Source: a virus
DNA: 55,180 nt
IMG/VR virus record: IMGVR_UViG_3300036845_000183
Coordinates: 1 to 55,180 of that record
Reading direction: 5' to 3' (one strand)
A model generated the notes under the pieces. That model was not told the DNA's origin. It made no database searches and was given only the letters and a program-made list of their open reading frames with translations. The translations under genes and the position numbers were made by a program. This document shows, in pieces, positions 1 through 54,980 of the stretch (the first letter of the stretch is position 1; the number at the start of each line of letters is the position of its first letter).

Positions 1-166
1 GTTCGGCATGCCATTGCGCCTGCGTCTTCGGGGTGATGAAGCCGGCGAAGTAGTTGGGCTTTTTCTGCTCCTGCCCTTTGTAGTTCGTGCTCGGTGACCA
101 AAGGTGTCGCATGTCCACGATGCGAACATTAAACAGGGTGAAAGGTTCGTACTGTCTGTTAGCCAT
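1..166 (-). CDS. ssDNA-binding-like protein, N-terminal fragment cut by window edge
   Basis: The ATG at 166-164 opens the same reading frame as the complete gene at 51888-52685. Roughly the first 55 residues are present and the rest lies beyond the window start. It is nearly identical to the complete copy, which supports a circular map in which position 1 equals 52520. Function is discussed under the full gene. Confidence 0.85.
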   Translation of the reverse strand, partial: MANRQYEPFTLFNVRIVDMRHLWSPSTNYKGQEQKKPNYFAGFITPKTQAQWHAE

Positions 167-212
167 TTTCAGTTGCTCACTTTTTCAATTTGCCGGGTCC
201 GCCGGCAGCGGT

Positions 213-659
213 TTACAGAACCTTAGGGTAGCCAATTTCCGCGGATTTCTCGTTGAATACTTCTGTCGCGGCATCGGCGATCATGAACCCGTTCGCTTGC
301 GCAAGCAAGTCTAAGTACACAAATATATCGCCAAGTTCCTTGCGAAGTTTGTTGCGCAATTCTTCTGGCGTTTCTTTGTTACCTTTAACGCCGTCGCGAA
401 CACGATTGAGTTTCTTCGCAATGTTGGCAGCTTCGCCCAATTCGCCAAGCACGGCGACGAACCAATCTGACGTACTCCATTCGTTTAGCTTGTGATTGAA
501 GCCCGACGGGCTCTCGCAACGTTCGCGGTTTGCTTCGCTGAAATTTTCAAAGGTCAAAGTCGCTCTCTGTGGGAGTCCTTTGCAGCTATGCGGCGTTCCT
601 GCCCATAGCTGCTCTCCACACTCGGCGCACCCACCCAAAGCGTCCATGTAATCTGTCAT
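213..659 (-). CDS. MazG-like NTP pyrophosphohydrolase
   Basis: A 148-residue protein. The segment LGELGEAANIAKKLNR followed by LRKELGDIFVYLDLLA carries the ExxE...ExxD helices that bind Mg2+ in the all-alpha MazG/dUTPase-like superfamily. Such enzymes hydrolyse (d)NTPs to monophosphates; phage versions are thought to adjust nucleotide pools or (p)ppGpp. The N-terminal 35 residues carry CxxC and a third Cys (CAECGEQLW...HSC), possibly a small zinc site not typical of minimal MazG. It starts two bases after the stop of the upstream nuclease gene. In the other copy of this locus a DUF4406-like gene occupies the same place, so the slot appears to be exchanged between nucleotide-metabolism genes. 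Confidence 0.8.
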   Translation of the reverse strand: MTDYMDALGGCAECGEQLWAGTPHSCKGLPQRATLTFENFSEANRERCESPSGFNHKLNEWSTSDWFVAVLGELGEAANIAKKLNRVRDGVKGNKETPEELRNKLRKELGDIFVYLDLLAQANGFMIADAATEVFNEKSAEIGYPKVL

Positions 660-661
660 GT

Positions 662-1609
662 TCAGTACGACGCTTTGAGCGTCCCTTCTGGTTTATGCGC
701 GCCAACAGCGGCGTACATCTTGCCGCTCGCGCCGAGCTTTTCGGCCTGGGCCGGCGAGACTGGCTTAACACCTTTGGCGCCGTATTGCGTATAGAGATGT
801 AGTGCGGCCTGGGTGTCGTCGTTCCAGCTTCGAAAACTTCGGCTCGTCTTCAGTGAAGCGCCTTGCGCTTGGTGCCCGAGTTTGAGCTTGACGGTCAAGG
901 CTTCCTCGTAAACTGGCTTGACGTCGCCCAGCGCGCGAATAAGCCGCAGCAGCCGCACAAGCTCGTCAGCCGTCAGATCTTCGATACGGCGCGTCATCGC
1001 GCCCATGACGAAGCCGGCATCGGTCGACATGGCCGGACAGACCTGAAAAGCCTTGCACCATCTGCACCACGGGCCTGGCTTCGGCGCGCTGCGATCGGCG
1101 ATGGCGCGAAGCACGCGAATTTTGTGCGCTTCGACTTCCGATCGGTGGTGTACCCATTGCTTCCACGGGTCTTCATCCAAGCCATTCGGCTGATAGATCA
1201 CGAAGCGCCACCACTCTGAAGACAGCGACGAAAGCAGACATGCCGCGTACGTCATAAGCTGCAAGTTGTGTTTCGCTGGCACGTCCCATTTGCCAAACTT
1301 ACCGTCAATGATTGTCGTGATACGCCGAGTGGGGTTCATGAGGTCGATAGTTCCGCCGCAGTCGTCAGTCAATTTTACCCGCAGCTCGCGTTCCAAGATT
1401 GGGTAGTCATCGTCGTATTCAAGCTGCGCTAGGAAGGCCTCAACCTCTGGGCTGCCGCCGGCTTCCATCACGACATGCTGCGCTGTACCGGCGTCGGCCG
1501 CTGCGACCGTCTCGGCTTTCTTCGGCGCATCGGGCACGGCGTTCAGCGCCGACCAGGGGCACTCAATCCACGTTGCGGTTGACGATGCGTTGAAAACGTC
1601 GTGGCTCAT
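662..1609 (-). CDS. RecB-like/DUF2800 PD-(D/E)XK nuclease, left allele
   Basis: A 315-residue protein. Visible features are the N-terminal WIECPWS motif, AADAGTAQH, the core TTIIDGKFGKWDVPAKHNLQ (catalytic D...xGK, then Q) and a C-terminal cluster CRWCKAFQVCP resembling the Fe-S cysteines of Cas4/AddB-type nucleases. This matches DUF2800-type phage exonucleases, probably acting in recombination or DNA-end processing. I chose the ATG at 1609 because it has AGGGAG five bases upstream and aligns with the second copy at 53979; an earlier ATG at 1648 adds 13 unconserved residues. The homologue at 53047-53979 has diverged in the middle, mainly around the region preceding the catalytic Asp. Confidence 0.8.
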   Translation of the reverse strand: MSHDVFNASSTATWIECPWSALNAVPDAPKKAETVAAADAGTAQHVVMEAGGSPEVEAFLAQLEYDDDYPILERELRVKLTDDCGGTIDLMNPTRRITTIIDGKFGKWDVPAKHNLQLMTYAACLLSSLSSEWWRFVIYQPNGLDEDPWKQWVHHRSEVEAHKIRVLRAIADRSAPKPGPWCRWCKAFQVCPAMSTDAGFVMGAMTRRIEDLTADELVRLLRLIRALGDVKPVYEEALTVKLKLGHQAQGASLKTSRSFRSWNDDTQAALHLYTQYGAKGVKPVSPAQAEKLGASGKMYAAVGAHKPEGTLKASY

Positions 1610-1747
1610 AGTGGCTCCCTGTGCTCGCATCGAACAAGCTTCTAGCACACACTTCGATTTTCGGCTCTGCGTCCAGGTCCTTCATCGGACACGCCTACTG
1701 ACTTCGCATGTGATCGGTTTTAGCCTTATAAACTAACAGGGAAAACT

Positions 1748-1942
1748 TCAACCGTTCGGCTTACTCCGACGCAGTCCGTCCGTGCCATGATCGCGTGCAT
1801 AGCAGGCCTGTTCGTAGCCCGGCGCGCATGCCACCAATGGTGCTACCTGCGTCTGGCAGTAATTTATGGCTTCGATCTGCCGGGGCGTGATCGGTCCCTG
1901 GATAACCAGGGTCAAAAGAATGGAACAAAAAGCTGCGTCCAC
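1748..1942 (-). CDS. Small Cys-containing protein with signal-like N-terminus, left allele
   Basis: A 64-residue protein beginning MDAAFCSILLTLVIQG, a short hydrophobic start that could be a weak export signal, followed by QIEAINYCQTQVAPLVACAPGYEQACYARDHG with several Cys. It is about 90% identical to 54172-54366, which supports it as a real gene. No family recognised. The 138 bases between it and the nuclease gene downstream hold no convincing gene here, while the second copy has a 67-residue gene in that gap. Confidence 0.65.
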   Translation of the reverse strand: MDAAFCSILLTLVIQGPITPRQIEAINYCQTQVAPLVACAPGYEQACYARDHGTDGLRRSKPNG

Positions 1943-2020
1943 GGTAGTTCCTCCTGTTAAAATTCGGGGGTTGGTAGAGGTTCGATACCAACCCCCACGA
2001 CATCGTCGAACCGACGCCGT

Positions 2021-2470
2021 TTAACTTACGCCCATCAGCTTGGCGATACCCTCCAGCGCCGGCATCGTCAGCTTGGGCAGAAAATGGCTCTTGATCTGGT
2101 CCATTGTGGCCGCCGATGCGTCGTGGCCGTTCTTCGCCAGCTCGCCGCGGAACCATGCCAGTGCCGGCTCAAGCGGCGACCCTGCGGCCAACGTGGCGTC
2201 CAGTTTCGCCGCGATCTTGCCAACCGTAGCCGTGACTTCGGGCGCCGGGCCTGCGGCCTGCGAAACTTGCCAAGCCGGTTGAGAATTGGAAGTGCTGGTG
2301 TTCGGCGGATTGAACTGCGTCGTTGGTACTTGCATCGGCGCCGGCACGTTCACGGCTGCCGCGCCATGCGGGGGCGTGTCGTCGTCGCCCTTGTCTTTCG
2401 GGCCGCGCTTGCCTTTCAGCTCGGCAACGAAGACCTTGACTTCCTCAATGCTGTCAAATTCAAGTTTCAT
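2021..2470 (-). CDS. Unknown protein with disordered Pro-rich centre, left allele
   Basis: A 149-residue protein. The first 25 residues are charged, the middle (about 30-75) is rich in Pro, Asn, Thr and Ala and probably disordered, and the C-terminal 70 residues are helical and well conserved with the allele at 54456-54923 (ASAATMDQIKxHFLPKL then MPALEGIAKLMG). The conserved tail suggests a binding domain; no family recognised. It is preceded by the promoter at 2498-2525. Confidence 0.7.
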   Translation of the reverse strand: MKLEFDSIEEVKVFVAELKGKRGPKDKGDDDTPPHGAAAVNVPAPMQVPTTQFNPPNTSTSNSQPAWQVSQAAGPAPEVTATVGKIAAKLDATLAAGSPLEPALAWFRGELAKNGHDASAATMDQIKSHFLPKLTMPALEGIAKLMGVS

Positions 2471-2497
2471 GTCTGTTTCCTGGGTTTGAGATGTTTT

Positions 2498-2525
2498 GTC
2501 TTACACTAAATCCGTACAGTGTCAA
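2498..2525 (-). promoter_or_regulatory. Sigma70-like promoter for 2021-2470 (left allele)
   Basis: On the minus strand TTGACA (2525-2520) is followed after 16 bases by TAAGAC (2503-2498). The start codon lies 28 bases beyond the -10 box. The spacer and both boxes are conserved in the other copy (54950-54977), although nearby coding sequence has diverged. Confidence 0.6.
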
Positions 2526-2528
2526 CTA

Positions 2529-2801
2529 CTATTCTTTGTAGTCCGAAAGATTGAGAGGAACTAGAACCCGTTCGAAAAATTTTATCGTGCCCCACTCAGG
2601 GCACAAACGCTCCGACAGCTCTTTGCTTCTATTGCACTGTGGGTGCCCGTATCCTTCGCCATAGAAAACTAGCCCTTTTTCAGGGTGGACCACCCACCAG
2701 CTATCCAGGTACTGATGCAGGTATGGGCTCCTACTGTGGATGGTTGCATCGTTTTCAGCGACGAAATGGTACATGGCAGAACCAACAACGTACTTTTTCA
2801 T
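2529..2801 (-). CDS. Unknown 90-residue protein
   Basis: The protein begins MKKYVVGSAMYHFVAENDATI and is rich in Tyr, Trp and His. No domain recognised. Its ATG overlaps the stop of the helicase gene as ATGA, so it is translated from the same message. A second, truncated copy starts the right-hand repeat edge (54981-55180) with only a few base changes. Confidence 0.7.
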   Translation of the reverse strand: MKKYVVGSAMYHFVAENDATIHSRSPYLHQYLDSWWVVHPEKGLVFYGEGYGHPQCNRSKELSERLCPEWGTIKFFERVLVPLNLSDYKE

Positions 2802-4405
2802 CGTTCGTGCATCCTTCCTTCGGTGTCAATAATCCCGTGCGCCACGTACCGGCCGTTCTGTGACCGCTTCAGGAACACGTTAGCGGGCGATGGCAGGTTC
2901 TGATAGGGCCAGTACGCCGTTGTGAACTTCGTTGTGAGCAGCCAGCCGTCGCCGCTCTTGACCGGTGGTGACACGATCTGCTGCCAGGGCTCATTCTCCA
3001 GTATCTTACGTATACTCACAGCCTCGTTTGCGCCACCGCGGGTTTTCAAATCCTTGCCGGCGCTCGTCACAATCGTGTTATCGTACTGACAAAAGGGGCA
3101 GATCGGATGCAGGAACGCGGCGTAAGTTTCCTGGCATGCTGCGCACTGCTTGATGTCGGATTGCTGCTGGCCACAATGCGGGCACCGCATGCCGTGAAAA
3201 TGCGGGTCGAATCGTTCGCCACAGGCCTTGCACTTCGGGGCGCTGTGGTGAATTTCCGCGCACTTCGGACACGTCTTGCCGTGCTCCCAAGTCTCCCATT
3301 CGCCAGGGCAGATTTCGCCGTCGCAAGTCAGCATGCGGCCCGGCGCTGCCATCACGGCGTCCAAGGCGCCATGCCTGGCGATATTGCCACCGAAGTCCGA
3401 GACGAGACAGTTCTGCGCTAGCGGAGTGATCCGCGCGCCGCGACCCAGCCCCTGAGCGTAGTAAACGGCCGATTTAGTGGCCCTCCCAAAAATTAGGTAG
3501 TCAATGCCCGGCACGTCGAAGCCCGTGCTGAACATGTTGCAGGAAACCAGGATGCCGTTTTCGCACTGCTCAAACCATTCGGTAGCCTTGTCGCGCTTGC
3601 CGTCGATGGATTTCGAGTGGACCCCTGCAACGGGGGCGCCTAGCCGCCTGTACTCTGCTTCTATTTTGTCCACGTGCGCGATGTTGCAGCAGAAGAACAG
3701 CGCTTTTCGGCGGTTAAATTTCTGCATTACGTCCAGAGATGTTTTGACGTGGCTGGGTGCGAGCTTGATCGCCCGCGGCGCCATTTCGTCAAGATCGTAA
3801 TCGCCGGCTATGGTGCTCAACCCCTCAACGCTGATTGTCTCGTCTTCACCAGCGTCGACGGGGACTAGCGGCTTGACATAACCATCACGTAAAGCGTCAA
3901 GAAAAGTATAGCGAAATACAATCGGGCCGAAAGTTTTGGCAAGATCACCGGTGCCGTCGGCTCGGAAAGGAGTACCTGTAAGTCCGTGGATTTTTGCATG
4001 ACTCAGCTTCTCAAATAGCTTGCGGTACTGCGAAGACTTGGCTGGCGGGACCATGTGAACTTCGTCAACCAGGATCGCAACCACGTCTCGGAATAGGTGC
4101 ACGCGATTGATAATAGTTCCGATCGTCCCCACGGTTACGCGTGCGAATGCATTGGTCGATATCGAGGCGCTGCAGATGCCCGGACTCAAACCGATTTTAC
4201 GCAGAGCCAGCGTATTGTGCTGCACCAACTTCTTGTTGTGCGCTACGACCAGCACCCGGCCGAATACGCTGTAATGCGCAGCCAGAATGCCGAGCATGAA
4301 ACTCTTGCCGCCCGCAACCGACACTTCGGCCACGGAGAACTGGCCTTCGTACTGAATGAGGGCTGACGTTCCTTGAAGCTGGTGGTCGCGCGGTACGAAG
4401 GTCAC
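2798..4405 (-). CDS. SF2 DNA helicase with C-terminal zinc ribbons
   Basis: A 535-residue DEAD/DEAH-type ATPase. Motif I is VAGGKSFM (about 30-37), motif II DEVH (114-117), motif III LTGTPFRADG, and the second RecA lobe has STGFDVPGIDYLIFGRAT and the motif VI-like GLGRGAR. Residues of about 365-455 contain several CxxC pairs (CPKC, CKAC, CPHC, CAAC, CPFC), forming at least two rubredoxin-like zinc ribbons, unusual for the minimal phage UvsW/RecG-like helicases. It probably unwinds DNA or branched intermediates in replication or recombination. The GTG start at 4405 overlaps the upstream stop as GTGA. Confidence 0.9.
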   Translation of the reverse strand: MTFVPRDHQLQGTSALIQYEGQFSVAEVSVAGGKSFMLGILAAHYSVFGRVLVVAHNKKLVQHNTLALRKIGLSPGICSASISTNAFARVTVGTIGTIINRVHLFRDVVAILVDEVHMVPPAKSSQYRKLFEKLSHAKIHGLTGTPFRADGTGDLAKTFGPIVFRYTFLDALRDGYVKPLVPVDAGEDETISVEGLSTIAGDYDLDEMAPRAIKLAPSHVKTSLDVMQKFNRRKALFFCCNIAHVDKIEAEYRRLGAPVAGVHSKSIDGKRDKATEWFEQCENGILVSCNMFSTGFDVPGIDYLIFGRATKSAVYYAQGLGRGARITPLAQNCLVSDFGGNIARHGALDAVMAAPGRMLTCDGEICPGEWETWEHGKTCPKCAEIHHSAPKCKACGERFDPHFHGMRCPHCGQQQSDIKQCAACQETYAAFLHPICPFCQYDNTIVTSAGKDLKTRGGANEAVSIRKILENEPWQQIVSPPVKSGDGWLLTTKFTTAYWPYQNLPSPANVFLKRSQNGRYVAHGIIDTEGRMHER

Positions 4406-4674
4406 GGTTTGCCTGTTCGCTTGAATCGACGACGCGACGCCCTCACGTCGTCAGCACGGCCCTTCCACATCTCGCATTCTTCGATTTCGTCTCGCAGTTC
4501 TGCGATCTCGGTTTCCGCGTCGGTCAGCGCCCGCAGGTCGTCCACGCAATCGAGGTAGAGTTGCGGCATGCCGGCTTCGATGCCCGCGTACCGCAGCCAG
4601 TCGAGAAAATCTTCGCGCGGCATCGTTGAGCTGAAGTGCTTTGTCTTGCGCCATGGCATCCAAGGTAGGGTCAT
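4402..4674 (-). CDS. Small unknown protein, coiled-coil-like
   Basis: A 90-residue protein starting MTLPWMPWRKTKHF; the middle (ALTDAETEIAELRDEIEECE) has heptad-like Leu/Ile spacing, then a very basic tail ending RRRFKRTGKP. I chose the ATG at 4674 because it overlaps the upstream stop as ATGA. No family recognised; DNA or nucleoprotein binding is possible from the tail only. Confidence 0.6.
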   Translation of the reverse strand: MTLPWMPWRKTKHFSSTMPREDFLDWLRYAGIEAGMPQLYLDCVDDLRALTDAETEIAELRDEIEECEMWKGRADDVRASRRRFKRTGKP

Positions 4675-4838
4675 AGGATGCACGCCACGAAAAAGAAACC
4701 GATGAACGCCAGCAGCAGCAACCACCGTTCGTCGAAGGTGACAGATCGCAGCGGTGGCGGCCCGAAGTCGTGGGAGAGCATGCGGCAGACCTCGGCGGTT
4801 GCGGCATGGCGGCGGTGTGCGTGCTGGCGGGGTGTCAT
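4671..4838 (-). CDS. Small protein with C-terminal membrane segment
   Basis: A 55-residue protein starting MTPRQHAHRRHAATAEV. The last 20 residues, including WLLLLAFIGFFFVACIL, form a likely membrane helix, giving a tail-anchored layout. Start chosen from the ATGA overlap with the upstream gene. Function unknown. Confidence 0.55.
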   Translation of the reverse strand: MTPRQHAHRRHAATAEVCRMLSHDFGPPPLRSVTFDERWLLLLAFIGFFFVACIL

Positions 4839-5035
4839 GCCTTGCCCTCCCTTTGGTAGCGCGCCCAGCGCATGGCGCACTCGGCGCCGCGGTCGTAGGC
4901 TTGCTTACCTACTTCGGTTTGCGGCCCGAGACTGGCCGGCGGGCTGTAACTACTGTTATAGTTTTCGAAGCCCGAATCGAACTCACGGAAGTTGTGATAC
5001 GGCGCATAAAGCGCCTTGAGCTGGTCCAGGGTCAT
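4835..5035 (-). CDS. Unknown small protein
   Basis: A 66-residue protein. The C-terminal AYDRGAECAMRWARYQREG looks like a compact amphipathic helix. Its ATG lies in TCATGA with the upstream stop (ATGA overlap), so it belongs to a translationally coupled set running from about 5599 to 2529. Confidence 0.6.
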   Translation of the reverse strand: MTLDQLKALYAPYHNFREFDSGFENYNSSYSPPASLGPQTEVGKQAYDRGAECAMRWARYQREGKA

Positions 5036-5238
5036 GACGCGATCCTCCGTACGTTGATGGTTGTCGATGCGCCCCAGAGCGCCGAACGGCGCTTGCCGTC
5101 AACGTTCTGGAGCAGAACTCCGATCTTGCCGCGCGGCGTTTTCGCTCCTGCGGAGGTGTAGACCACGGTTTCGCCGGACCCGACGACGTCGCCCGGACGG
5201 AGGTATCGGGCGACGATTTTGGTGATTTGTTCGGTCAT
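5032..5238 (-). CDS. Unknown small beta-rich protein
   Basis: A 68-residue protein with alternating hydrophobic residues (YLRPGDVVGSGETVVYTSAG, later GKIGVLLQNVDGKRRSALWG), consistent with a small beta-barrel such as an SH3-like fold. That fold is inference only. It lies between tightly packed small genes. Confidence 0.6.
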   Translation of the reverse strand: MTEQITKIVARYLRPGDVVGSGETVVYTSAGAKTPRGKIGVLLQNVDGKRRSALWGASTTINVRRIAS

Positions 5239-5241
5239 CGT

Positions 5242-5433
5242 TCAGTCCTCCGCTTGAAACAGGAAATGACCCACCAAGCCGCGACCGCTAAGAAGCGTCG
5301 CAAGGTTGTCATTCAGGGTAGACAGTTCCATTTTGGCGTACCGGTTGCCGGCGGCAAGACGCGCTTCGGTCGCCGCGATGTCGCGCCTGATTTCAGCAAT
5401 TTTCTTGTCGACTCGCTTCTGACTGACCGCCAT
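5242..5433 (-). CDS. Small coiled-coil protein
   Basis: A 63-residue protein; residues about 5-50 (KRVDKKIAEIRRDIAATEAR then AKMELSTLNDNLATLL) have heptad spacing typical of a coiled coil. Function unknown. It begins just after the stop of the leader-controlled gene 5435-5599. Confidence 0.55.
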   Translation of the reverse strand: MAVSQKRVDKKIAEIRRDIAATEARLAAGNRYAKMELSTLNDNLATLLSGRGLVGHFLFQAED

Positions 5434-5434
5434 G

Positions 5435-5599
5435 TCACGCCGCCTTCGAAAAGAGCTGCACGCCAGCGGGCGGGTTGGCGTTCTGCCAAGCGAAGTGCAG
5501 TTCCTCGGCGAAGAACAGCGCGTACGCCTTGCCGGTCTTGCAGAGGCCGAAACGGCGGCGGGCTTCGGCGTGGGCGGTCTTCATGATCTGGGATTTCAT
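5435..5599 (-). CDS. Leader-regulon small gene A (unknown)
   Basis: A 54-residue basic protein starting MKSQIMKTAHAEARRRFG and continuing with KTGKAYALFFAEELHFAWQN. It is the first gene behind leader copy A (5605-5640). No family is recognised with certainty, though short proteins of this form occur in other phages. Its start is fixed by the conserved leader with GGAGAG just upstream. Confidence 0.65.
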   Translation of the reverse strand: MKSQIMKTAHAEARRRFGLCKTGKAYALFFAEELHFAWQNANPPAGVQLFSKAA

Positions 5600-5604
5600 C
5601 GGGT

Positions 5605-5640
5605 GCTCTCCAGCGGTTGTTGATGTACGTACGATAGCAC
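5605..5640 (-). promoter_or_regulatory. Leader module copy A: conserved 5' leader with -10 box
   Basis: On the minus strand, TGCTATCGTACGTACATC leads into ACAACCGCTGGAGAGC (5620-5605), ending five bases before the ATG at 5599. GGAGAG is the ribosome-binding site. TATCGT (5636-5631) is the candidate -10 box; no good TTGACA is seen upstream, only TTAGGC. The block from the -10 box to the start is shared with copies B and F. Confidence 0.75.
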
Positions 5641-5679
5641 GAGTTTCGAGATTGCCTAATCACTTTTTATTACAAATTG

Positions 5680-6006
5680 TTACAGTCGCAGCTCCAGACC
5701 CAATTCCTGCGCCCGGTCCCACACCCGCGCCATCAGTTCGCCGATCAGCATCATTTCCGCGCCGGGCTGCGGCATGCCCAGGTCTTGAAACTCCGTTGTA
5801 CTGCCATCTGAGAAGCTGCACACGCCCCGCGGAATGATCTGGCCCCGCGGCGTGTTCACCACCATGCGCAGCTCGGGCCGCTCGCTGCGCACCAGCACAG
5901 CGGTGCATGCCACCATCGTCGCCAAGTCGCGCTGGATTAGCGCCACCGTCTCGGCGACGGGCGCAGGCTCCCAGGGCATGCGGTGCGGTACTAGGTTGTC
6001 AGTCAC
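5680..6006 (-). CDS. Unknown 108-residue protein
   Basis: The GTG at 6006 is chosen because it is the nearest in-frame start to the upstream stop (5999). Contents: PVAETVALIQRDLATMVACTA, then a beta-rich part and a helical end (GAEMMLIGELMARVWDRAQELG). No family recognised. It is the last gene before leader copy A. Confidence 0.55.
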   Translation of the reverse strand: MTDNLVPHRMPWEPAPVAETVALIQRDLATMVACTAVLVRSERPELRMVVNTPRGQIIPRGVCSFSDGSTTEFQDLGMPQPGAEMMLIGELMARVWDRAQELGLELRL

Positions 6007-6247
6007 GTTCTTCAGGCATGAAAAGCGGAAACTCTGGCTTTGATTCAGTATCGACAATCCAGCCGCATACAGTGCAGCGCCGTGACGTCTCCGCCCTCGT
6101 CACTCCGATACCGTGCATGTCGATCACGCCGTCATCCATGAAAGAATGATCGTAACCAGCCTCGCGTAGCTTTCGCGCTATCTCATCGTATGCCGACTGC
6201 GACAGCTCAAGTTCGGCATACGTATGCGTAGAGGTCAGTTTTCCCAC
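5999..6247 (-). CDS. Unknown small protein with CxxC motif
   Basis: An 82-residue protein. The segment RRCTVCGWIVDTESKPEF carries one CxxC pair, and AYDEIARKLREAGYDHSFMD looks like a helix-turn-helix-sized unit. GTG start at 6247 with AAAGGAG upstream. Function unknown. Confidence 0.6.
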   Translation of the reverse strand: MGKLTSTHTYAELELSQSAYDEIARKLREAGYDHSFMDDGVIDMHGIGVTRAETSRRCTVCGWIVDTESKPEFPLFMPEERD

Positions 6248-6250
6248 AGT

Positions 6251-6424
6251 TCACTCCTTTGTTTGGCCGCACACCGGGCAAGTGGTCCATTGCTGTGCAG
6301 TAGAACACCACGCACACGGAGGCTTTTCGATCGGTGCCGGTTTGCCGAGATACCAGCTCCGATCGATGTAATCGCGCTGGTTGCTGACTGGCGTGCATTT
6401 CGGATCGAAACCTAAGTCTCCCAT
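6251..6424 (-). CDS. Small zinc-ribbon protein
   Basis: A 57-residue protein: MGDLGFDPKCTPVSNQRDYI, later PPCAWCSTAQQWTTCPVCGQT. Two CxxC pairs (CAWC, CPVC) indicate a zinc ribbon. The stop lies four bases before the next start, with the shared AAAGGAG. Role unknown; phages often use such proteins to bind host polymerases or nucleic acid. Confidence 0.6.
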   Translation of the reverse strand: MGDLGFDPKCTPVSNQRDYIDRSWYLGKPAPIEKPPCAWCSTAQQWTTCPVCGQTKE

Positions 6425-6543
6425 GGCATCTTTTCCTTCTTTGGCGGCGGTGGTTGATGTGTCGCGCCGAGACGGCAGCGCACGCCGTCAAGCAAAGGTT
6501 TGCCGCAGGCGCAAACACCGTCCCACTCGCCGTTGATGGTCAT
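6412..6543 (-). CDS. Tiny Cys-containing protein
   Basis: A 43-residue protein, MTINGEWDGVCACGKPLLDG and a Pro/Lys-rich tail ending KKEKMPWET. It has a CxC pair and a further Cys, possibly a half zinc site. Its ATG overlaps the preceding stop as ATGA; it overlaps the next gene by 13 bases. Confidence 0.5.
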   Translation of the reverse strand: MTINGEWDGVCACGKPLLDGVRCRLGATHQPPPPKKEKMPWET

Positions 6544-6794
6544 TTGTCGCTGATCAGCAAACGCATATAAAACTTATGGTCGCTCGCTTCCGGCCATGTA
6601 CGCCAGTATAGCGTACCTATTTTGTCTTTCGCGTAGGTGCGGAAAGCTTCGCGAGCCTCGTTTTCCGCGCCGAATCCTTCAAGTTTAACGTATGGTTCGC
6701 CTGTGGGCGCGTAGCCAGGTGCTTTCGGCGTAAACTGAACGACGTGGTACCCCTGTTCAAGTTCTTTGCGAAGCAGGTGCAAAATTACGCTCAC
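6540..6794 (-). CDS. Unknown 84-residue protein
   Basis: The protein starts MSVILHLLRKELEQGYHVVQ. The GTG at 6794 is favoured because it overlaps the primase-helicase stop as GTGA. Its form (Leu-rich helix, then beta-strands with YVKLEGFG and TLYWRTWPE) is not one I recognise. Probably co-expressed with the replication gene upstream. Confidence 0.55.
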   Translation of the reverse strand: MSVILHLLRKELEQGYHVVQFTPKAPGYAPTGEPYVKLEGFGAENEAREAFRTYAKDKIGTLYWRTWPEASDHKFYMRLLISDK

Positions 6795-8827
6795 TTCCTT
6801 CCCTCCCAAGTCATCCAAGGCATAAGCAGTTCGTGCTTGACGCCGTTCACTGGCGCAAAAACCGCCAGGAACGGGCACCCGCGCATTGTACGGAAATATC
6901 CGCTGTCAAGCAAGCTTTTCAAGACGGCGCGCTCAAACATTTTTGCCGCAGCGTCCTTGTTGATGACATATCCGGGGCGTTCGTCGATTCTGTCGCCAAG
7001 TTCTTCCACACTCTCAAAGGTGACGATGTTTCCGGCTCGGAGGCCATTCATCCCGCCGGCAACTGCGCCAGGCAGCATCGCGGCCAGTCGCATCACGGCA
7101 TTTTGTTCTTGTTGTTCGGGCGGCAAGACAATCTCCCTCTTGAATACGTTCACAGTTGTGATTCGGCCTTTGCTGTCGGTGCCGTAGTTCTCCGACACGA
7201 TCCGGCCAATGTAGCTTTTGGCCTTCGGGGCGCCGCGGGCCTTGCCGCAGTCGATCGAAACCTGATCGCCCTTGCCGGCGGTGACGCGGTAGACAAAACC
7301 TGACTGAGCCGACTTGGCGCCGTTGCCTTTCTGCCACGCGTCTTCATTGCCGAGTGGCAGATGGTCCGTGACGATCGTTGCTGCAGCGGTTCGCTTCGCA
7401 ATCAGTTTGAGCACGAACATCGCCTTCAAAACCTTCTCGGTATCGTTGTCGGCGAAGCACAGCCCCGAGGCGCCCCAGGTGTCAACCACGATCAGATCGA
7501 CACGCTTGCCCATGGCGGCCATAGCTTGGACTTGGCCTAGGCACTGCGATTCGAACGCCAGAGGCTCGGGCACGCCGCGGATCAAATGGAACCTATCAGC
7601 CAGTTCGCCGCCATTCGATTCGAGACGGAGTAAGTGTCTCACGCGTCGTTCTGTGCCGTAATCGTCTTCAGCCGCGACCCATAGTACGTGACTGTCCAGC
7701 CGCTCAACATCAGCCTCAAGCCAACTTCGTCCAGCGAGCAAAGAAACAGCCATGTCGCTAACGACAGTGGATTTTCCCGCTCCAGAGTGCCCAGTAACGA
7801 AATGTAGTTCTCCGCAGAGAACACGCTGATGGAGCAACCATGGTAACTCTGCACTGCTATCCTCCAGTGAGATTTCAAAACCAGTTCGTGCAGCAACCAG
7901 CGTCGGCGCCGTTTGCGCGTCGTGCAGGCCTTGCAACATTGTGCGCCTGTTCATGATCGCTTGCATGATCAGGTTGCCGCGCAGCACGGGCAAGTCGTCG
8001 TGGCGCGAGATTTCTTCGCCTAGAGTGCGACCTCCGAGGCCTTCGTCAAGCGAGTGGCCAGCGCCAGTGATCGCGTCTTCAATTTCCTGCCGGACACAGA
8101 GGCCGTTCAGCTCGGCGAATTTCAGCACGCCAACTAAGGAAAAGATCGTTGAGCCGCGCCCTTCGGTGCGCCCCGTTAGCTCTTGTTTAAGTAGCCCGAG
8201 GTATCGTTGAGCAGCGTCTCGTCCTGCTTGCCATTCGTCCTGCGTTCTTGGCACGGCTTCTTTGAGTTCGTCGAGACTGGCAGTCTCATGGTCTGCAGAG
8301 AAGCGCAGCGAGGTTCCTGCACGCAAGGGTACTTCACTAAGGACTGATTGAAGCTGAGCACTCGTAAGTCGCGGCCACTCGGCGTCCCAGTTTTCCCAGA
8401 CATAATTTTCTCCTGTGTCCTTATGCGGACCGAAGGCGACGAACTGGCCGCCCATGAGCTGCAGCTTGTCGCCATCAGGAAACGTGAACGTGCGGCCGGT
8501 TACCGGAGTGTCGGTTAGGTAAAACGGAATGAGGAAACGAGGCTTCTTCCCCCAGCGTACCGGCACATCGTGCCCCAGCACGCCTCTAAATGCAGCAAGC
8601 AGTCGCATTGACGCGGATGCGTCGCCGCAATCAACATCAAAGGCGGTAAGCCCGCCATCGCCACAACGAAGACCGACGCCCCCGGCTCCAGGGTGTGGTA
8701 TTGGACTTGTCCAGACGTTCCAGCCTTCGCCGATCGGTCGTTTCGATCCTCGGGCGATTGCGAGGGGGAACAGGCCTCTTTGCGTCGCTTCATGCCAAAA
8801 CTCCTGAATTGAGGACGGAAACGGCAT
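6791..8827 (-). CDS. Bifunctional primase-polymerase / RepA-like helicase
   Basis: A 678-residue replication protein. Residues 20-165 are a prim-pol (AEP) domain: PHPGAGGVGLRCGDGGLTAF then DVDC supplies the catalytic Asp pair at 64 and 66, and QFVAFGPHKDTGENYVW is the conserved final strand. Residues 335-560 are a RecA-type ATPase of the RepA/DnaB-like (AAA_25) kind: Walker A TGHSGAGKST (about 343-352) and Walker B LIVVDTWGASG. This pairing primes and unwinds DNA at phage or plasmid origins. ATG start at 8827, preceded by a leader with a 9-bp hairpin. Confidence 0.92.
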   Translation of the reverse strand: MPFPSSIQEFWHEATQRGLFPLAIARGSKRPIGEGWNVWTSPIPHPGAGGVGLRCGDGGLTAFDVDCGDASASMRLLAAFRGVLGHDVPVRWGKKPRFLIPFYLTDTPVTGRTFTFPDGDKLQLMGGQFVAFGPHKDTGENYVWENWDAEWPRLTSAQLQSVLSEVPLRAGTSLRFSADHETASLDELKEAVPRTQDEWQAGRDAAQRYLGLLKQELTGRTEGRGSTIFSLVGVLKFAELNGLCVRQEIEDAITGAGHSLDEGLGGRTLGEEISRHDDLPVLRGNLIMQAIMNRRTMLQGLHDAQTAPTLVAARTGFEISLEDSSAELPWLLHQRVLCGELHFVTGHSGAGKSTVVSDMAVSLLAGRSWLEADVERLDSHVLWVAAEDDYGTERRVRHLLRLESNGGELADRFHLIRGVPEPLAFESQCLGQVQAMAAMGKRVDLIVVDTWGASGLCFADNDTEKVLKAMFVLKLIAKRTAAATIVTDHLPLGNEDAWQKGNGAKSAQSGFVYRVTAGKGDQVSIDCGKARGAPKAKSYIGRIVSENYGTDSKGRITTVNVFKREIVLPPEQQEQNAVMRLAAMLPGAVAGGMNGLRAGNIVTFESVEELGDRIDERPGYVINKDAAAKMFERAVLKSLLDSGYFRTMRGCPFLAVFAPVNGVKHELLMPWMTWEGRK

Positions 8828-9230: not shown

Positions 9231-9284
9231 GCTCTCCAGCGGTTGTTCGATGTACGTACATAGCACACCTAGAAGGGGTGTCAA
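9231..9284 (-). promoter_or_regulatory. Leader module copy B: full promoter plus leader
   Basis: On the minus strand: TTGACA (9284-9279), 16-base spacer, TATGTA (9262-9257) inside the palindrome TGTACGTACA, then ACAACCGCTGGAGAGC (9246-9231) and the ATG. The TGA stop of the upstream gene (9281-9283) lies inside the -35 hexamer. The segment upstream, GGGGGCTTGACACCCCTTC, is repeated at copy C. Confidence 0.8.
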
Positions 9285-10099: not shown

Positions 10100-10154
10100 G
10101 CTCTCCAGCGGTTGTTGACGATTTGTATGTACACGCGTTCCGAAGGGGTGTCAA
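10100..10154 (-). promoter_or_regulatory. Leader module copy C: full promoter plus leader
   Basis: On the minus strand: TTGACA (10154-10149), 17-base spacer, TACATA (10131-10126), then ACAACCGCTGGAGAGC (10115-10100) and ATG. The TGA of the gene above (10151-10153) sits within TTGACA. Shares GGGGGCTTGACACCCCTTC with copy B. Confidence 0.8.
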
Positions 10155-11352: not shown

Positions 11353-11403
11353 CGGCGCTTTGCGTACGTGCAATAAGAAGGTCGTCAACAACCGCTGGAG
11401 AGC
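11349..11403 (+). promoter_or_regulatory. Leader module copy D: promoter plus leader
   Basis: TTGACG (11349-11354), 17-base spacer, AATAAG (11372-11377), then ACAACCGCTGGAGAGC (11388-11403) and ATG at 11408. The upstream TGA (11350-11352) falls inside the -35 hexamer. Spacer contains GTACGT, as in copies A, B and F. Confidence 0.75.
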
Positions 11404-11572: not shown

Positions 11573-11623
11573 CAACTCCCACAACTTCACGTACTGACAG
11601 CACATAAACAACCGCTGGAGAGC
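11569..11623 (+). promoter_or_regulatory. Leader module copy E: promoter plus leader
   Basis: TTGACA (11569-11574), 17-base spacer, TACTGA (11592-11597), ACAACCGCTGGAGAGC (11608-11623), ATG at 11627. The stop of the preceding gene (11570-11572) lies in TTGACA. The spacer is unlike the other copies, so the leader core is the constant part. Confidence 0.75.
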
Positions 11624-13603: not shown

Positions 13604-13630
13604 CATGCCGGAGCACACGGAGCCGGCATG
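13604..13630 (+). promoter_or_regulatory. Hairpin that covers the start codon of the ejection protein
   Basis: CATGCCGG (13604-13611) pairs with CCGGCATG (13623-13630), and the last three bases are the ATG of the 1,323-residue gene. The GGAG Shine-Dalgarno site lies in the 11-base loop. In RNA this 8-bp GC-rich stem would mask the start codon, suggesting translational control. Confidence 0.5.
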
Positions 13631-16600: not shown

Positions 16601-17599
16601 GCTGCGATCGAAAAGCTTGGTCACGATCCTGACGACATCGCCTATGCGGCCGAACAGGCAAACCAAAAGGCGACCAAGGGCGAGGCGAACATGGAACGCC
16701 CGCTTGCGGCCGAAAAAGCTTCGGTCGGGCGGGGCTACCAGGCGCAGCGTGCGGAATTGGCTGCAACGCCAGTCAATCAGCACGTCGTGAACTCAGACGG
16801 TTCTGCATGGGACGCGTCCAAAGGCTACGGCATTGCGGACGGCCCCAAATCAATGGTTCGGACGGCTGAGAACCCGAAAGGCGCGGTCGACGAAGCCTAC
16901 GCGGCCGATGCGGAGAGCGCGCAACGGCTTGCGTCGGCGCCGGCCGCCAGTCCTGCGGAGCGCTGGGGCAACGTCGAAAAGGCGCAAGCCGAACTGCTCA
17001 GGAAGGAGCGTGACGCCTATGCGAACAATGATACGACGCGTGCGAACGCCATGCGCACGATGGCGACTAGTCTTCGCGGCGAGCAGGCTCGCATTGCGCG
17101 TGGGTTGCTTCCCGAAGGTCGCGCGCAATCGTTCATGGACGAATTGCATGACCTTGACGAACGGTACGCCAAGGTAATGAAGCTCAGCGAAGGCATCAAG
17201 CAGAGCAAGCTTGATTCGCTGCTGTCGAAGAACACACCGGAGAGCCGGGAGTTCGAAACGAACTTCAAGCGTATCGCGGGCGACGATGTATCGGCTATTC
17301 GCACGTTCAACGCGATCAAGGCCAATGCGCGCAACTCGCTCGGCGGCGAAGCAAAGCTCATGCTTCCCGTGATCGCGGGCGAAGTGACGGCGAACGCAAC
17401 GGGCATTCCGACCATGGGCGCCGCGTCGGCCGCAATTGGGCTGCACCGAACCTACAAGATCCTGGGTGACTGGCTGAGCGCGAAGGCGCTTGGCAAGACG
17501 GTCAAGTTTGCCGATTTCATGCGCCAGGAGACGAAGGCGCCGACCGTGAACGTCGGCGGACGCGCCGCGGTCGGAGCAGCACAGGAGGCACAGCAATGA
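13628..17599 (+). CDS. Internal virion/ejection protein with lytic transglycosylase domain
   Basis: A 1,323-residue protein. Residues 1-540 are helical and rich in Ala, Gln and Asn; 545-625 is a Pro/Gly linker; about 630-770 is an SLT-like muramidase domain (ATQRIESGNEASPWAAGTPR, then SSASGAFQFINSTW, with the catalytic Glu in RIESG and the typical SGAFQF); 815-860 is a Gly/Ala-rich segment that could cross the membrane (GSTLGAIGGSVAGPLGTVGG); the rest is helical. This layout fits proteins ejected into the periplasm to open peptidoglycan and form a DNA channel, as with T7 gp16. Start ATG lies in a hairpin. Confidence 0.88.
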   Translation: MSGQQAFGAALNQGFGTGGEGAPEPPLDLSPPSPGAATPDQQSPVFGSATSGMTFGQPKYTTDPNATALDQSASLIQQRIDQATKISNNPFAAIFAPDEVAKARDFVPQAADALQKIKQQQQTGIDAKDTARNWGLTNPNQFGPQTTDTTLANEALRQWKDEGNFNAYKALSGLGPEWKNRAELYMPDAMGKFATHVNAVQDGITALNAAVNTRSQTAYEAARDKLIKSNDLSAIGVRPENIPGTKEGWLAARGPLEAQYNQASRTIKAFQTRQDQLNQATPITDEKVGSRIEGTFQFGNGETVPGFKAVSLPGYGDVQGVMGPPGSKDIAQRGVTWSNAAPEQVKTVQEQTKAPEVQGAINKYKMAREFNETAQNDKMYKSAAGIALISDELGAIGRDVSEGSKAAGSIGLTKMLEAKYGSVDNARNKLAQEASALKDWLSKGGDKNPRLSPPSIQGIKDVAQYKHDQALKEVRDRIGQPLETAGRYGMILKNLGLDKEITDSPEIRGVYDQALARGNKELDSYPMVAIGDRRVMLPSGSSVQGAIQGTMQHPALTTPAQPAQGGGAPALTGAGTSGPSGSPGPNSPAGGAAPTAPQPPTVPPAGGGGPAPQPQVIAGQSVNAPMPPGASPGYMQATQRIESGNEASPWAAGTPRSSASGAFQFINSTWAADKPPGAPARAGDATPQQQADAFATRTAKNAATLTKAGLPVNDVSLYVAHNLGEGAGPKLLQADPNADARSIVGDKAASNNPRFFRGKPTVATVLQRYSDAMQPPQGAWGRLNSLFMQGIPAGQRAQAARNVGTAATENAPAIGSTLGAIGGSVAGPLGTVGGGAAGGAGGQVLKDYLQGNPQSPTNIAEQGALGGVLGVAPAGKPLVGLATRVLGAGSVEAGAEAARGGSAEDVVKAGAVGSAAAAGGEALGRFIGYLGRQAHQFVSKYTQPAQKELFEHGTNLAEARATLESTEPKLPGDGGDNPKYVAAEKAEEKSKAAIEKLGHDPDDIAYAAEQANQKATKGEANMERPLAAEKASVGRGYQAQRAELAATPVNQHVVNSDGSAWDASKGYGIADGPKSMVRTAENPKGAVDEAYAADAESAQRLASAPAASPAERWGNVEKAQAELLRKERDAYANNDTTRANAMRTMATSLRGEQARIARGLLPEGRAQSFMDELHDLDERYAKVMKLSEGIKQSKLDSLLSKNTPESREFETNFKRIAGDDVSAIRTFNAIKANARNSLGGEAKLMLPVIAGEVTANATGIPTMGAASAAIGLHRTYKILGDWLSAKALGKTVKFADFMRQETKAPTVNVGGRAAVGAAQEAQQ

Positions 17600-26178: not shown

Positions 26179-26180
26179 CC

Positions 26181-26819: not shown

Positions 26820-26828
26820 GAGGCGGCC

Positions 26829-32587: not shown

Positions 32588-34126
32588 GTGCTACCCTGGG
32601 AGACGCCTGCACCTACCAAAGAGGAAGTGCGGGCGAAGCTCCATGATTTCGATGTTTACCGTGAACGGTTTCTGCGGGTCCGACCGCGACAAGGCGGCGA
32701 CCGTATCCCCTTCGTTCTGAACGCCGCCCAACGCGTGCTGCATGGGAAAGTGGAGGCTGAACGGGCCGCCTTTGGGCTGGTGCGCTGCCTCATTCCCAAG
32801 GCGCGGCGGATGGGCGTCAGCACCTACATCGGCGGTCGCTACTTTCAACGCACCGCAACCGAGTACGGGCGCCGCGCCCAAGTTGTGGCGCACCGATCGG
32901 ACAGCGCTACCAACCTCCACCGTGAAATCAAAGAGTTCTATGAAGGGCTGCCACAATCCATCCGCCCCCATCTCGGCGCGTCGAACGCTCGGGAGTTGAT
33001 TTTTGACAAGCTGAAATCGCTCTACAAGGTTGGTTCGGCCGAAGGTGGCGACATCGGCCGTTCCGATGACTTTCACTTTCTGCACCTATCCGAGGCTGGG
33101 TTCTTCGACAACACGGAAGACTTGTCGTCCGGTTTGCTGCAGACGGTGCAGAACTTACCAGGCACTGAAATTGCCATGGAGAGCACTGGCAACGGGCAAT
33201 CCGGCATGTTCTACAACATGTGCGAGGAGGCGTACCGCCAGAACAACAAAGGACCGTGGCGGCTGCATTTCCTGCCGTGGTTGGTCATGCCCGAGTACCG
33301 CACCGAGGTTCCGTTTGGGTGGAAGGCGCCGCAGGATTTTGAGGATTACGCGCGGTTGCACGGCTGCGACCGCGAACAACTCTATTGGTTTTGGTTACAG
33401 AATTACACCATCGGAACCATGAATGGCGGGCAGCCCGAGAAGATCCACCCTCTTACCCGTCAGGAATACCCGGCCACGTATGCCGAGTGCTTCATGGCCG
33501 ACAGTACGATGGATTTCTTTCCGGCCTCCATGGTTGCCGCAGCGATGGCACGCAAGCCGGCGCCCTCCGCTGGAGCGCTGAAGTTGCTCTGCATAGACCC
33601 GGCTGGCGACGGCCAGGACAAGCCTTTCGTTTGCGATCGCCAGGGCTCTGCGATCGGAGCGCGTCTATGGGGCGAAATAACCAATCGAGATTACAACGTT
33701 CAAGCTGACTGGCTGGTGCAGCAATTCGACAATTTCAGCATGGACGCCATTTTGATCGACGTAACCGGCGGGTACGGAAAAGGACTGAAAGACGCCGTCC
33801 GCTTGCGGATGAAAAGCCGCGGTCCCGAGAAAGTGGTTGCGGTTGATTTTTCATTCGGGGCGCTGAATTCGATACAGTGCGGCAACCGGCGTGCGGAGCT
33901 CCACGACAAATTGCAGCGGTGGCTTCAGGGCGACGTGTCATTGCCGAATGACAAGCTGTTGCAAGAGGAAGCATCGGCCTACAAGTGGGGTACCAGCGGC
34001 TGTCACCGTGACGAAAAGGGCCGGCTGTTCATGACTCTCAAAGAGAAAATCAAGAAAGAACTGAAGCCCGTGCGGTCACCGGACAGATTGGACGCATGCG
34101 CGGTTTCTATGGCAGTAGACGGGTGA
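32588..34126 (+). CDS. terL: Terminase large subunit
   Basis: A 512-residue ATP-driven DNA packaging motor. The ATPase part shows a Walker A-like KARRMGVST (71-79) and a Walker B/TPN-like region FHFLHLSEAGFFDN; the nuclease part has CIDPAGDGQD (Asp about 337), LIDVTGGYGKG (about 390) and RLDACAVS (Asp about 502), the RNase-H-like acidic triad. GTG start at 32588, two bases after the holin candidate's stop. It is far from the portal gene, which is on the other strand. Confidence 0.93.
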   Translation: MLPWETPAPTKEEVRAKLHDFDVYRERFLRVRPRQGGDRIPFVLNAAQRVLHGKVEAERAAFGLVRCLIPKARRMGVSTYIGGRYFQRTATEYGRRAQVVAHRSDSATNLHREIKEFYEGLPQSIRPHLGASNARELIFDKLKSLYKVGSAEGGDIGRSDDFHFLHLSEAGFFDNTEDLSSGLLQTVQNLPGTEIAMESTGNGQSGMFYNMCEEAYRQNNKGPWRLHFLPWLVMPEYRTEVPFGWKAPQDFEDYARLHGCDREQLYWFWLQNYTIGTMNGGQPEKIHPLTRQEYPATYAECFMADSTMDFFPASMVAAAMARKPAPSAGALKLLCIDPAGDGQDKPFVCDRQGSAIGARLWGEITNRDYNVQADWLVQQFDNFSMDAILIDVTGGYGKGLKDAVRLRMKSRGPEKVVAVDFSFGALNSIQCGNRRAELHDKLQRWLQGDVSLPNDKLLQEEASAYKWGTSGCHRDEKGRLFMTLKEKIKKELKPVRSPDRLDACAVSMAVDG

Positions 34127-51560: not shown

Positions 51561-51606
51561 CAGTACGTCAACCCCCGTCTTGTGCGTTCCCACCATATGA
51601 AGCGAT

Positions 51607-51887: not shown

Positions 51888-52685
51888 TCAGCGCGGCGGA
51901 AACGGCTGACCGCTAAAAGGGGATGTCGCATTCCCAGGACTTGTGGATGGCGCTCCAAACGGGGCCGGGGCATTTTGGAAAGCAGGTCCTGATGTTGTCC
52001 CTGGAGCCGTCGTACCGAATGAAGCCGGGGCAAACCCCTGGGGCAGGCTTAGACCCGGCTGCTGAAAACCCGGCGCCCCCTGCGGCTGAAAACCTGGCGA
52101 CCCGGAGAACCCCGCCACCTGCAGACCCTGCTTCTGTGCTTGCTGCATCAGTTCAGCGCCGGACACTGAGTTGGCGAATACGATCTCCTCGCCGGGTGCC
52201 GAGAACACGACGGCATTGAGATACAACTTCGCAGCTCGGTTGTTCTGCTGGCTGACGGCTGCGGTGCCGCCGACCATACAGTAGTCGCCGGATTTCACGC
52301 CGACCTTGTTCTGAAGCTTTACGAGCGCACCGCCAGCCTGAACGATTTCGACGTTCGGCGGGCTTTCGGTGGACGCGTTGAACAACCAGTGGCCCTTGGC
52401 GAACTCGGACGACTTGCCGTCCGCGCTCGGCAGATCGCCGTCCTGAATGCGCCAATCCGTGATCTGCGGGTTGTTGGCGTGCAGCTTCATCAGTGCCGCC
52501 GTCAAGCCGGCGAGCGCCGGTTCGGCATGCCATTGCGCCTGCGTCTTCGGGGTGATGAAGCCGGCGAAGTAGTTGGGCTTTTTCTGCTCCTGCCCTTTGT
52601 AGTTCGTGCTCGGTGACCAAAGGTGTCGCATGTCCACGATGCGAACGTTGAACAGGGTGAACGGTTCATACTGTCTGTTAGCCAT
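51888..52685 (-). CDS. Putative ssDNA-binding protein
   Basis: A 265-residue protein: N-terminal OB-fold-like strands (EPFTLFNVRIVDMRHLWSPS), NYFAGFITPKTQAQW, then a long Pro/Gly/Ser-rich tail ending PFSGQPFPPR. It is consistent with phage SSB proteins (DUF2815-like), which have an OB fold and an exposed tail ending in a protein-binding motif. Placement beside polymerase and PP-loop genes fits. Family is tentative. The window's first 166 bases are the same gene. Confidence 0.65.
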   Translation of the reverse strand: MANRQYEPFTLFNVRIVDMRHLWSPSTNYKGQEQKKPNYFAGFITPKTQAQWHAEPALAGLTAALMKLHANNPQITDWRIQDGDLPSADGKSSEFAKGHWLFNASTESPPNVEIVQAGGALVKLQNKVGVKSGDYCMVGGTAAVSQQNNRAAKLYLNAVVFSAPGEEIVFANSVSGAELMQQAQKQGLQVAGFSGSPGFQPQGAPGFQQPGLSLPQGFAPASFGTTAPGTTSGPAFQNAPAPFGAPSTSPGNATSPFSGQPFPPR

Positions 52686-52734
52686 TTTCAGTTGCTCACT
52701 TTTTCAATTTGCCGGGTCCGCCGGCAGCGGTAAA

Positions 52735-53046: not shown

Positions 53047-53979
53047 TCAATACGACGCCTTGAGCGTCCCTTCTGGTTTGTGTGCGCCGACAGCGGCGTA
53101 CATCTTACCTTCCGTGCCTAGCTTTTCAGCCTGGGCTGGCGAGACGGGTTTGACACCTTTGGCGCCGTACTGCGTATATAGATGCAGTGCAGCTTGGGTG
53201 TCGTCGTTCCACGCGCGGTAGCTTCGGCCCGTCTTCGGCGGGTCGCCGTGACCGAGCTTTTGATGCACGAGCAGCGCTTCCTCATAAACTGGCTTGACGT
53301 CGCCCAGCGCGCGAATCAGTCGCAGCAGCCGCTGCAATTCGTCGTGGGTTAGGTCTTCCGGCCGGCGCGTGATGGCGCCCATGACAAAACCGGCATCAGT
53401 CGACATCGCCGGGCAGGCCTGAAACGCTTTGCACCAGCGGCACCACGGGCCTGGCTTCGGCGCGCTGCGATCGGCGATGGCGCGAAGCACGCGGGCTTTG
53501 TGCGCTTCGACCTCGCTGCGGTGGTGTACCCATTGTTTCCAAGGGTCCTCGTCCAGGCCGTTCGGCTGATAGATGACGAAACGCCACCATTCCGCGTCGT
53601 TCTGATCAAGCAAGCATGCGGCATAGGTCATGAGCTGCAAGTTATGCTTTGCCGGAACGTCCCACTTGCCGAACTTGCCATCAAGAACGGTTGCCACGTT
53701 GCGGTAGATCGGGTCGTTAAAAACGTCGACCGTACCCCCACAGTCGTCCGCCAACTTCACACGTAGTTCTCTGCGGATGTCCCCGTCTTCAAGCTGCGCC
53801 AGAAACGCTTCAACCTCCGGAATGCCGCCGGCTTCCATAACGCCATGCCGCGCCGTACCGGCATCGGCCGCCGCGATCGTCTCGGCTTTCTTCGGCGCAT
53901 CAGGTACGGCATTCAAGGCCGACCACGGGCATTCGATCCATGTCGCGGTAGACGATGCATTGAAAACGTCGTGGCTCAT
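53047..53979 (-). CDS. RecB-like/DUF2800 PD-(D/E)XK nuclease, right allele
   Basis: A 310-residue homologue of 662-1609. It has the same WIECPWS, AADAGTARH, VATVLDGKFGKWDVPAKHNL and CRWCKAFQACP motifs. The stretch before the catalytic Asp differs (KLADDCGGTVDVFNDPIYRN here), where the left allele has a shorter loop, and it is five residues shorter overall. Likely same role. Confidence 0.8.
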   Translation of the reverse strand: MSHDVFNASSTATWIECPWSALNAVPDAPKKAETIAAADAGTARHGVMEAGGIPEVEAFLAQLEDGDIRRELRVKLADDCGGTVDVFNDPIYRNVATVLDGKFGKWDVPAKHNLQLMTYAACLLDQNDAEWWRFVIYQPNGLDEDPWKQWVHHRSEVEAHKARVLRAIADRSAPKPGPWCRWCKAFQACPAMSTDAGFVMGAITRRPEDLTHDELQRLLRLIRALGDVKPVYEEALLVHQKLGHGDPPKTGRSYRAWNDDTQAALHLYTQYGAKGVKPVSPAQAEKLGTEGKMYAAVGAHKPEGTLKASY

Positions 53980-54179
53980 TCGCCGGCTCTCGTCATGGAC
54001 CTGTGCCAGTCGCTCAGCAACCGGCTGTACTTGTTCCCGTTTTCCGTGTTTTCGTATACGATGTTGATAGGATACTTCAGGCGGTCGCCGGGTTCATTTG
54101 TGAACATGATGACGCGGTACTCGCATCCGTTCCGGTGTCGCCAAATCGATCCGATCGCAGGTTTTTCGGTGTCAGCCAT
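53976..54179 (-). CDS. Small protein present only in the right copy
   Basis: A 67-residue protein, MADTEKPAIGSIWRHRNGCE, YRVIMFTNEPGDRLKYPINI: a short beta-barrel form like DUF1653-type phage proteins (GxxWRHxxGxxYxV). ATG at 54179; the end overlaps the nuclease gene start as ATGA. The left copy has only a non-coding gap here. Confidence 0.6.
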   Translation of the reverse strand: MADTEKPAIGSIWRHRNGCEYRVIMFTNEPGDRLKYPINIVYENTENGNKYSRLLSDWHRSMTRAGE

Positions 54180-54366
54180 TCGGCTTGCTCCGGCGCAACC
54201 CATCCGTGCCATGGTCGCGTGCGTAGCAGGCCGCCTCGTAGCCCGGCGCGCATGCCACCAATGGCGCTACCTGTGTCTGGCAGTAATTGATGGCCTCAAT
54301 CTGCCTGGGCGTGATCGGCCCCTGGATAACCAGGGTCAAAAGAACGGAACAAAAAGCTGAGTCCAT
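54172..54366 (-). CDS. Small Cys-containing protein with signal-like start, right allele
   Basis: A 64-residue homologue of 1748-1942 with about six differences. Same hydrophobic start and the same Cys pattern. Confidence 0.65.
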   Translation of the reverse strand: MDSAFCSVLLTLVIQGPITPRQIEAINYCQTQVAPLVACAPGYEAACYARDHGTDGLRRSKPNG

Positions 54367-54455: not shown

Positions 54456-54923
54456 CTATCGCAAGCCCATCAACTTGGCGATGCCTTCGAGCGCCGGCAT
54501 CGGAAGCTTGGGCAGGAAATGGCCTTTGATTTGGTCCATCGTGGCCGCCGAAGCGTCGAAACCGTGTTTGCCGATCTCGGTTCGGAACCATGCGAGCGCC
54601 GGTTCTGCGGGCGACCCGCCGGCGATCGTCGAATCAAGCTTGGCTGCGACTTCATTGACAACCTTCATGATTTCCTGTGCCAAGCCGGCGGGCGCTGTGC
54701 TGGGGAACGCGCCGCCTTGCGGAAACGTCGTGCTGGTGGCCTGCGGATTGAACTGCGTTGCGGTCGGTATCGCCATCGGCGCGGGCACGTTCACGGTTGC
54801 CGTGGTGTGCTGGGGCGGCGTCGCTGTCTGTTCGTCGTCGCCTTTCTTCGTCCGCGTCTTCTTGCCGCTGGTCTTGAAGGCTTCGAACTCGTCTTCGTTG
54901 TCAAATTCGACAGTGATTCGCAT
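54456..54923 (-). CDS. Unknown protein with disordered Pro-rich centre, right allele
   Basis: A 155-residue homologue of 2021-2470. ATG at 54923 is chosen because it follows the shared promoter; the first half has diverged strongly (MRITVEFDNEDEFEAFKTSG versus MKLEFDSIEEVKVFVAELKG), but the C-terminal 70 residues are conserved. Confidence 0.7.
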   Translation of the reverse strand: MRITVEFDNEDEFEAFKTSGKKTRTKKGDDEQTATPPQHTTATVNVPAPMAIPTATQFNPQATSTTFPQGGAFPSTAPAGLAQEIMKVVNEVAAKLDSTIAGGSPAEPALAWFRTEIGKHGFDASAATMDQIKGHFLPKLPMPALEGIAKLMGLR

Positions 54924-54949
54924 GCTCGGTTCCTTGTTTGAGATGTTTT

Positions 54950-54977
54950 GTCTTACACTAAATCCGTACAGTGTCAA
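54950..54977 (-). promoter_or_regulatory. Sigma70-like promoter, right allele
   Basis: TTGACA (54977-54972), 16-base spacer, TAAGAC (54955-54950): identical boxes and nearly identical spacer to the left copy, upstream of 54456-54923. Confidence 0.6.
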
Positions 54978-54980
54978 TTA

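Follow-up and report, generated by a model that had tools for sequence, protein, structure and literature searches.

Repeats of k-mer length at the two ends of a viral contig are a sign of a circular template in CheckV (PMC8116208). Exact end repeats are found in three IMG/VR records of uncultured phages, IMGVR_UViG_3300031730_000008, 3300006237_000004 and 3300044840_000023, which have a size of 52.4-52.8 kb and share with the contig described here the gene order around the exonuclease, the annealing protein, the helicase and the polymerase, their exonuclease being 73-77% identical. Unlike our contig, these records carry the locus once, with other genes in the slot between the exonuclease and the ssDNA-binding protein (SSB), and their end repeats are exact and 120-127 bp long.

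The window analysed here is the whole virus record IMGVR_UViG_3300036845_000183, 55,180 bases in length, so that its edges are the true ends of the contig and not cuts made by a scan. Its first 2,728 and last 2,661 bases are homologous in direct orientation and could be aligned over their full length. BLASTN of the two ends matched 1-212 with 52520-52731 at 98.1% identity (4 mismatches), 661-1609 with 53046-53979 at 78.6% and 1748-2728 with 54172-55180 at 78.5%, with E-values of 1e-103 and 0.0 which exclude a chance match. On the other side, the aligned right flanks (about 2484-2728 and about 54936-55180) differ by 3 mismatches in about 245 bases, corresponding to 98.8% identity. Next to the left flank, 213-659 in the first copy (A) and 52735-53046 in the second (B) hold different genes of different families, whose DNA does not align. 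The first-pass annotation had described the two ends as two alleles of one locus, with near-identical flanks at 1-210 and 52520-52731 and at about 2488-2728 and about 54940-55180. BLASTN and alignment confirmed these limits, and the allelic reading agrees with flanks of 98-99% identity enclosing middles that are about 78% identical or non-homologous. Such middles also bear out its statement that the ends are not identical terminal repeats. The features of both copies are collected in Table 1.

Table 1. Features of the two allele copies and of the adjoining regions of the contig
Feature	Coordinates	Strand	Evidence
Left shared flank, copy A	1..212	.	98.1% to 52520-52731; first 127 bases exact
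ssDNA-binding/annealing gene, N-terminal codons (and leader in flank)	166 down to 1	-	Cut by contig start
Slot gene A, MazG-like nucleotide pyrophosphohydrolase, 148 aa	213..659	-	phrog_229 E 3e-06
Exonuclease A (DUF2800 / PD-(D/E)XK), 328 aa as listed	662..1648	-	phrog_69 E 1e-39; PF10926 87 bits
64-aa ORF A, counterpart of 54172-54366	1748..1942	-	22/195 bases differ, 15 at third codon positions
149-aa protein A, adjoins exonuclease in relatives	2021..2470	-	tblastn, 11 relatives
Right shared flank, copy A, complete 90-aa ORF 2529-2801	2484..2801	-	3 mismatches in about 245 bases; 121 exact
DEAD/DEAH-type DNA helicase, single copy, first gene past duplicated ends	2798..4405	-	phrog_16 E 4e-64
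Terminase large subunit	32588..34126	+	phrog_2 E 1.3e-16
Gp2.5/Enc34-like ssDNA-binding and annealing protein, complete, 265 aa	51888..52685	-	phrog_7011 E 3.5e-20; PF10991 over cut-off
Left shared flank, copy B	52520..52731	.	BLASTN 98.1% to copy A
Slot gene B, DUF4406 / nucleoside 2-deoxyribosyltransferase-like, 103 aa	52735..53046	-	phrog_355 E 7.5e-23; PF14359 70 bits
Exonuclease B, 310 aa	53047..53979	-	87% amino-acid identity to A; sister of A in tree
78-aa ORF, allele B only, function unknown	53976..54212	-	phrog_4767 E 1.6e-08
64-aa ORF B	54172..54366	-	Base comparison with A counterpart
149-aa counterpart B, listed start TTG, ATG some codons inside	54456..54977	-	Alignment and tblastn
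Right shared flank, copy B, 90-aa ORF cut by contig end	54981..55180	-	With 2729-2801 gives identical 90-aa protein

From these comparisons we propose that the contig very probably represents slightly more than one turn of a dsDNA phage genome that maps as a circle of about 52.5 kb and encodes a terminase, the cassettes of two strains both being kept as an uncollapsed bubble. The anatomy of the record shows near-identical flanks around two different cassettes of about 2.3 kb (exonuclease, slot gene, 149-aa and 64-aa proteins), those of two co-existing strains, and the assembler would have been unable to collapse them. The contig would then have begun at the allele branch, passed through allele A, gone round the genome and ended through allele B. 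The difference between the cassettes would itself have arisen when related lineages recombined, switching within the shared flanks. What the record very probably displays is strain mosaicism combined with an unresolved assembly bubble, and neither a tandem duplication nor a 2.7 kb terminal repeat.

Joining base 52519 to base 1 yields a closed unit of 52,519 bp with allele A, and joining 55180 to 2729 one of 52,452 bp with allele B. Both joins restore intact genes together with the gene order of the relatives. The genes cut at the contig edges (1-166 and 54981-55180) are whole in the other copy, as had been noted in the first pass, and the 265-aa and 90-aa proteins read across the joins show zero residue changes with respect to the complete copies.

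Twelve related contigs were collected by two IMG/VR scans, using the A and B exonucleases as queries. Whole-record searches detected a single close exonuclease and a single ssDNA-binding protein in every relative (12/12 in both cases). One copy of the helicase was found in 10 of the 12, at 73-79% identity, the two contigs without a helicase match being short, and the 149-aa protein gave tblastn matches in 11. No record among the 12 contains two copies of the locus. A second exonuclease-like match in five relatives was discarded as not belonging to this locus (30-33% identity, located elsewhere and on the opposite strand). Where the genes are present their order is fixed: helicase - 149-aa protein - DUF2800/PD-(D/E)XK exonuclease - variable slot - ssDNA-binding/annealing protein - DNA polymerase. 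This is the order produced by either join. The near-full-length relatives G001, G002, G004, G007, G008 and G012 are circular permutations of our contig, with ends located elsewhere and continuous sequence through the predicted join. G007 has no end repeat, and one of its genes is split over the two ends (residues 1-41 and 44-203, with a two-residue gap). Three relatives exhibit exact direct end repeats of 127, 126 and 120 bases; their closed lengths of about 52,409 to 52,810 bracket both predicted units.

A circular genome of about 52.5 kb had been put forward by the first-pass annotation. It stands as a map, in line with the closed relatives; the terminase large subunit gene marks a tailed, DNA-packaging phage, so the virions probably carry linear DNA. 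Circular is used here for the putative map of the genome, the form of the virion DNA being a separate matter. Headful packaging with circular permutation, or the joining of cohesive ends, could each produce such a map, and the data fit both equally well.

Outside this group of relatives, no phage record matched 1-8000 in a distant BLASTN search, and the helicase is only about 27-31% identical to cultured phages among the matches listed, so that cultured relatives could not serve as references. In bacterial and archaeal genomes the helicase likewise found distant matches only (28-31% identity), and consequently no host or prophage can be named. An exact search of IMG/VR, from which close records may be missing, with 31 bases of the left flank recovered no second record with either allele; a near-identical phage carrying just one of the alleles was thus not met with, a point against the proposed reading.

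Between the copies the flanking proteins show no difference, unlike the exonucleases, for which dN is 0.10 and dS 1.02, with differences distributed 39/24/126 over the three codon positions. Low dN and mostly third-position differences indicate that both are functional genes, long separated, and not products of errors. Their common start is probably the ATG at about residue 15 of exonuclease A as listed. In a tree of 14 sequences the two exonucleases are closest to each other (support 100/98), which indicates an exchange between lineages of one small group. The exchanged interior had been ascribed to strain variation. This was supported, but mere allelic drift does not account for it: one gene has been replaced outright and synonymous substitutions approach saturation, implying a cassette exchanged between lineages. 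We infer recombination as the cause from the sharp borders, the high dS and the slot-gene replacement. Promoter and terminator scans found the flanks no richer than shuffled sequences, and we therefore make no claim that the switch points lie at regulatory signals.

Slot gene A scored 20.2 bits against the Pfam MazG family, under the cut-off of 22. In the relatives, the slot is occupied by a PAPS reductase-like gene (L006), MazG/pyrophosphatase-like genes (L010, L011) or unnamed small ORFs (in others), and the exchange of the MazG-like gene for DUF4406 is a single case of this variability. Our contig also has a PAPS reductase-like gene at 50787-51617, between the polymerase and the ssDNA-binding gene; in L006 the gene of the same PHROG is on the opposite side, in the exonuclease-SSB slot. 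The two cassettes might be long-lived, selected alternatives within one phage population. Nucleotide-metabolism genes (MazG-like, DUF4406, PAPS reductase) would then be swapped in an accessory slot of the recombination operon, each along with the exonuclease allele that goes with it, and recombination would homogenise the rest of the genome; we regard this scenario as unlikely.

The exact match at the left ends extends over 127 bases, with the first difference at base 128, and the breakpoint would accordingly be an assembler product at a k-mer branch point. The left end would thus resemble that of a contig begun at a de Bruijn branch vertex with k=127. Against this, the exact run at the right ends is 121 bases, six short of 127, and the right end is not precisely at a k=127 merge point.

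These data can be set against other explanations. The printed contig has the form of a linear genome of about 55.2 kb whose ends carry a genuine 2.7 kb duplication that has since diverged, of old tandem or terminal origin. Such a genome would, however, keep its edge genes truncated, and the 127-base exact start suits an assembler branch point. The locus is single-copy in 12/12 relatives, and the closed ones reach only 52.4-52.8 kb, a range that includes our predicted lengths, which makes a true duplication, or linear DNA bounded by long terminal repeats, highly unlikely. A tandem duplication was rejected on the same count of relatives (0/12 with two copies) and because the contig ends cut the outer genes.

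Terminal-redundancy heterozygotes have been described for T4, and a headful phage whose individual virions carry a different allele at each end could also present two alleles. About 2.7 kb (5%) is a plausible redundancy, and a population mixing two alleles would yield such virions. Circular permutation would nevertheless scatter the ends of the molecules, so that a bulk assembly would not stop at the borders of one allele, and the pattern is explained without heterozygous virions; we consider this extremely unlikely. It is just as improbable that the contig is a chimera, mostly of one phage species with one end misjoined from another phage. Middles differing at about 22% of bases, in addition to a gene replacement, would suit a misjoin, but both versions run into the same flanks at 98-99% identity and restore the same order and intact genes, and in the tree their exonucleases group together to the exclusion of every relative. 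A two-allele population amounts to a mild version of the chimeric reading and would look the same in the assembled contig. The wrap-around of one circular map through two strain cassettes is the explanation that we retain.

Several other features of the contig were recorded. The motif CAACCGCTGGAGAGC occurs in six exact copies, at 5605-5619, 9231-9245, 10100-10114 and 48318-48332 on the minus strand and at 11389-11403 and 11609-11623 on the plus strand, for an expected count of 0.26 with up to 2 mismatches. Several copies lie just upstream of a start codon and have a longer leader in common (GTGCTATGTACGTACATC...), and the motif is also exact in several relatives; it is a candidate for a phage leader or ribosome-binding element. 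Two adjoining related genes account for a 349-base direct repeat at 73% identity (26179-26527 and 26827-27175), an arrangement that recurs in relatives, and at 45835-45984 a 63-base unit is repeated in tandem with 97.7% identity. Finally, a long tail fibre/transglycosylase-like gene covers 13628-17599. Both ends of the G012 contig fall within its counterpart and the G004 and G008 contigs end near theirs, which suggests a second variable place breaking assemblies.

The finding is mainly an assembly artefact, with a swapped gene cassette as a modest biological extra. It adds about 5% to the length and gene count of the record, and might let a complete genome be taken for a linear one. Spotting diverged wrap-around ends would allow more closed phage genomes to be recovered, and would give a direct view of cassette exchange within one population. 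The variable slot adjoining the exonuclease gene adds modestly to what is known of phage mosaicism.

As in the modular mosaicism of phages, where homologous and non-homologous exchanges occur at module borders, we observed a sharp switch from near-identical to diverged sequence and a gene replacement at one position; unlike the usual situation, both alleles are inside a single assembled contig. The record also resembles the DTR contigs of CheckV (PMC8116208), in which a circular template broken by the assembler leaves sequence repeated at both ends, here with the exact left match. In contrast to those contigs, the repeat extends over 2.7 kb in the form of a diverged allele; exact-repeat criteria at both ends therefore fail, and the record has the look of an overlong linear genome.
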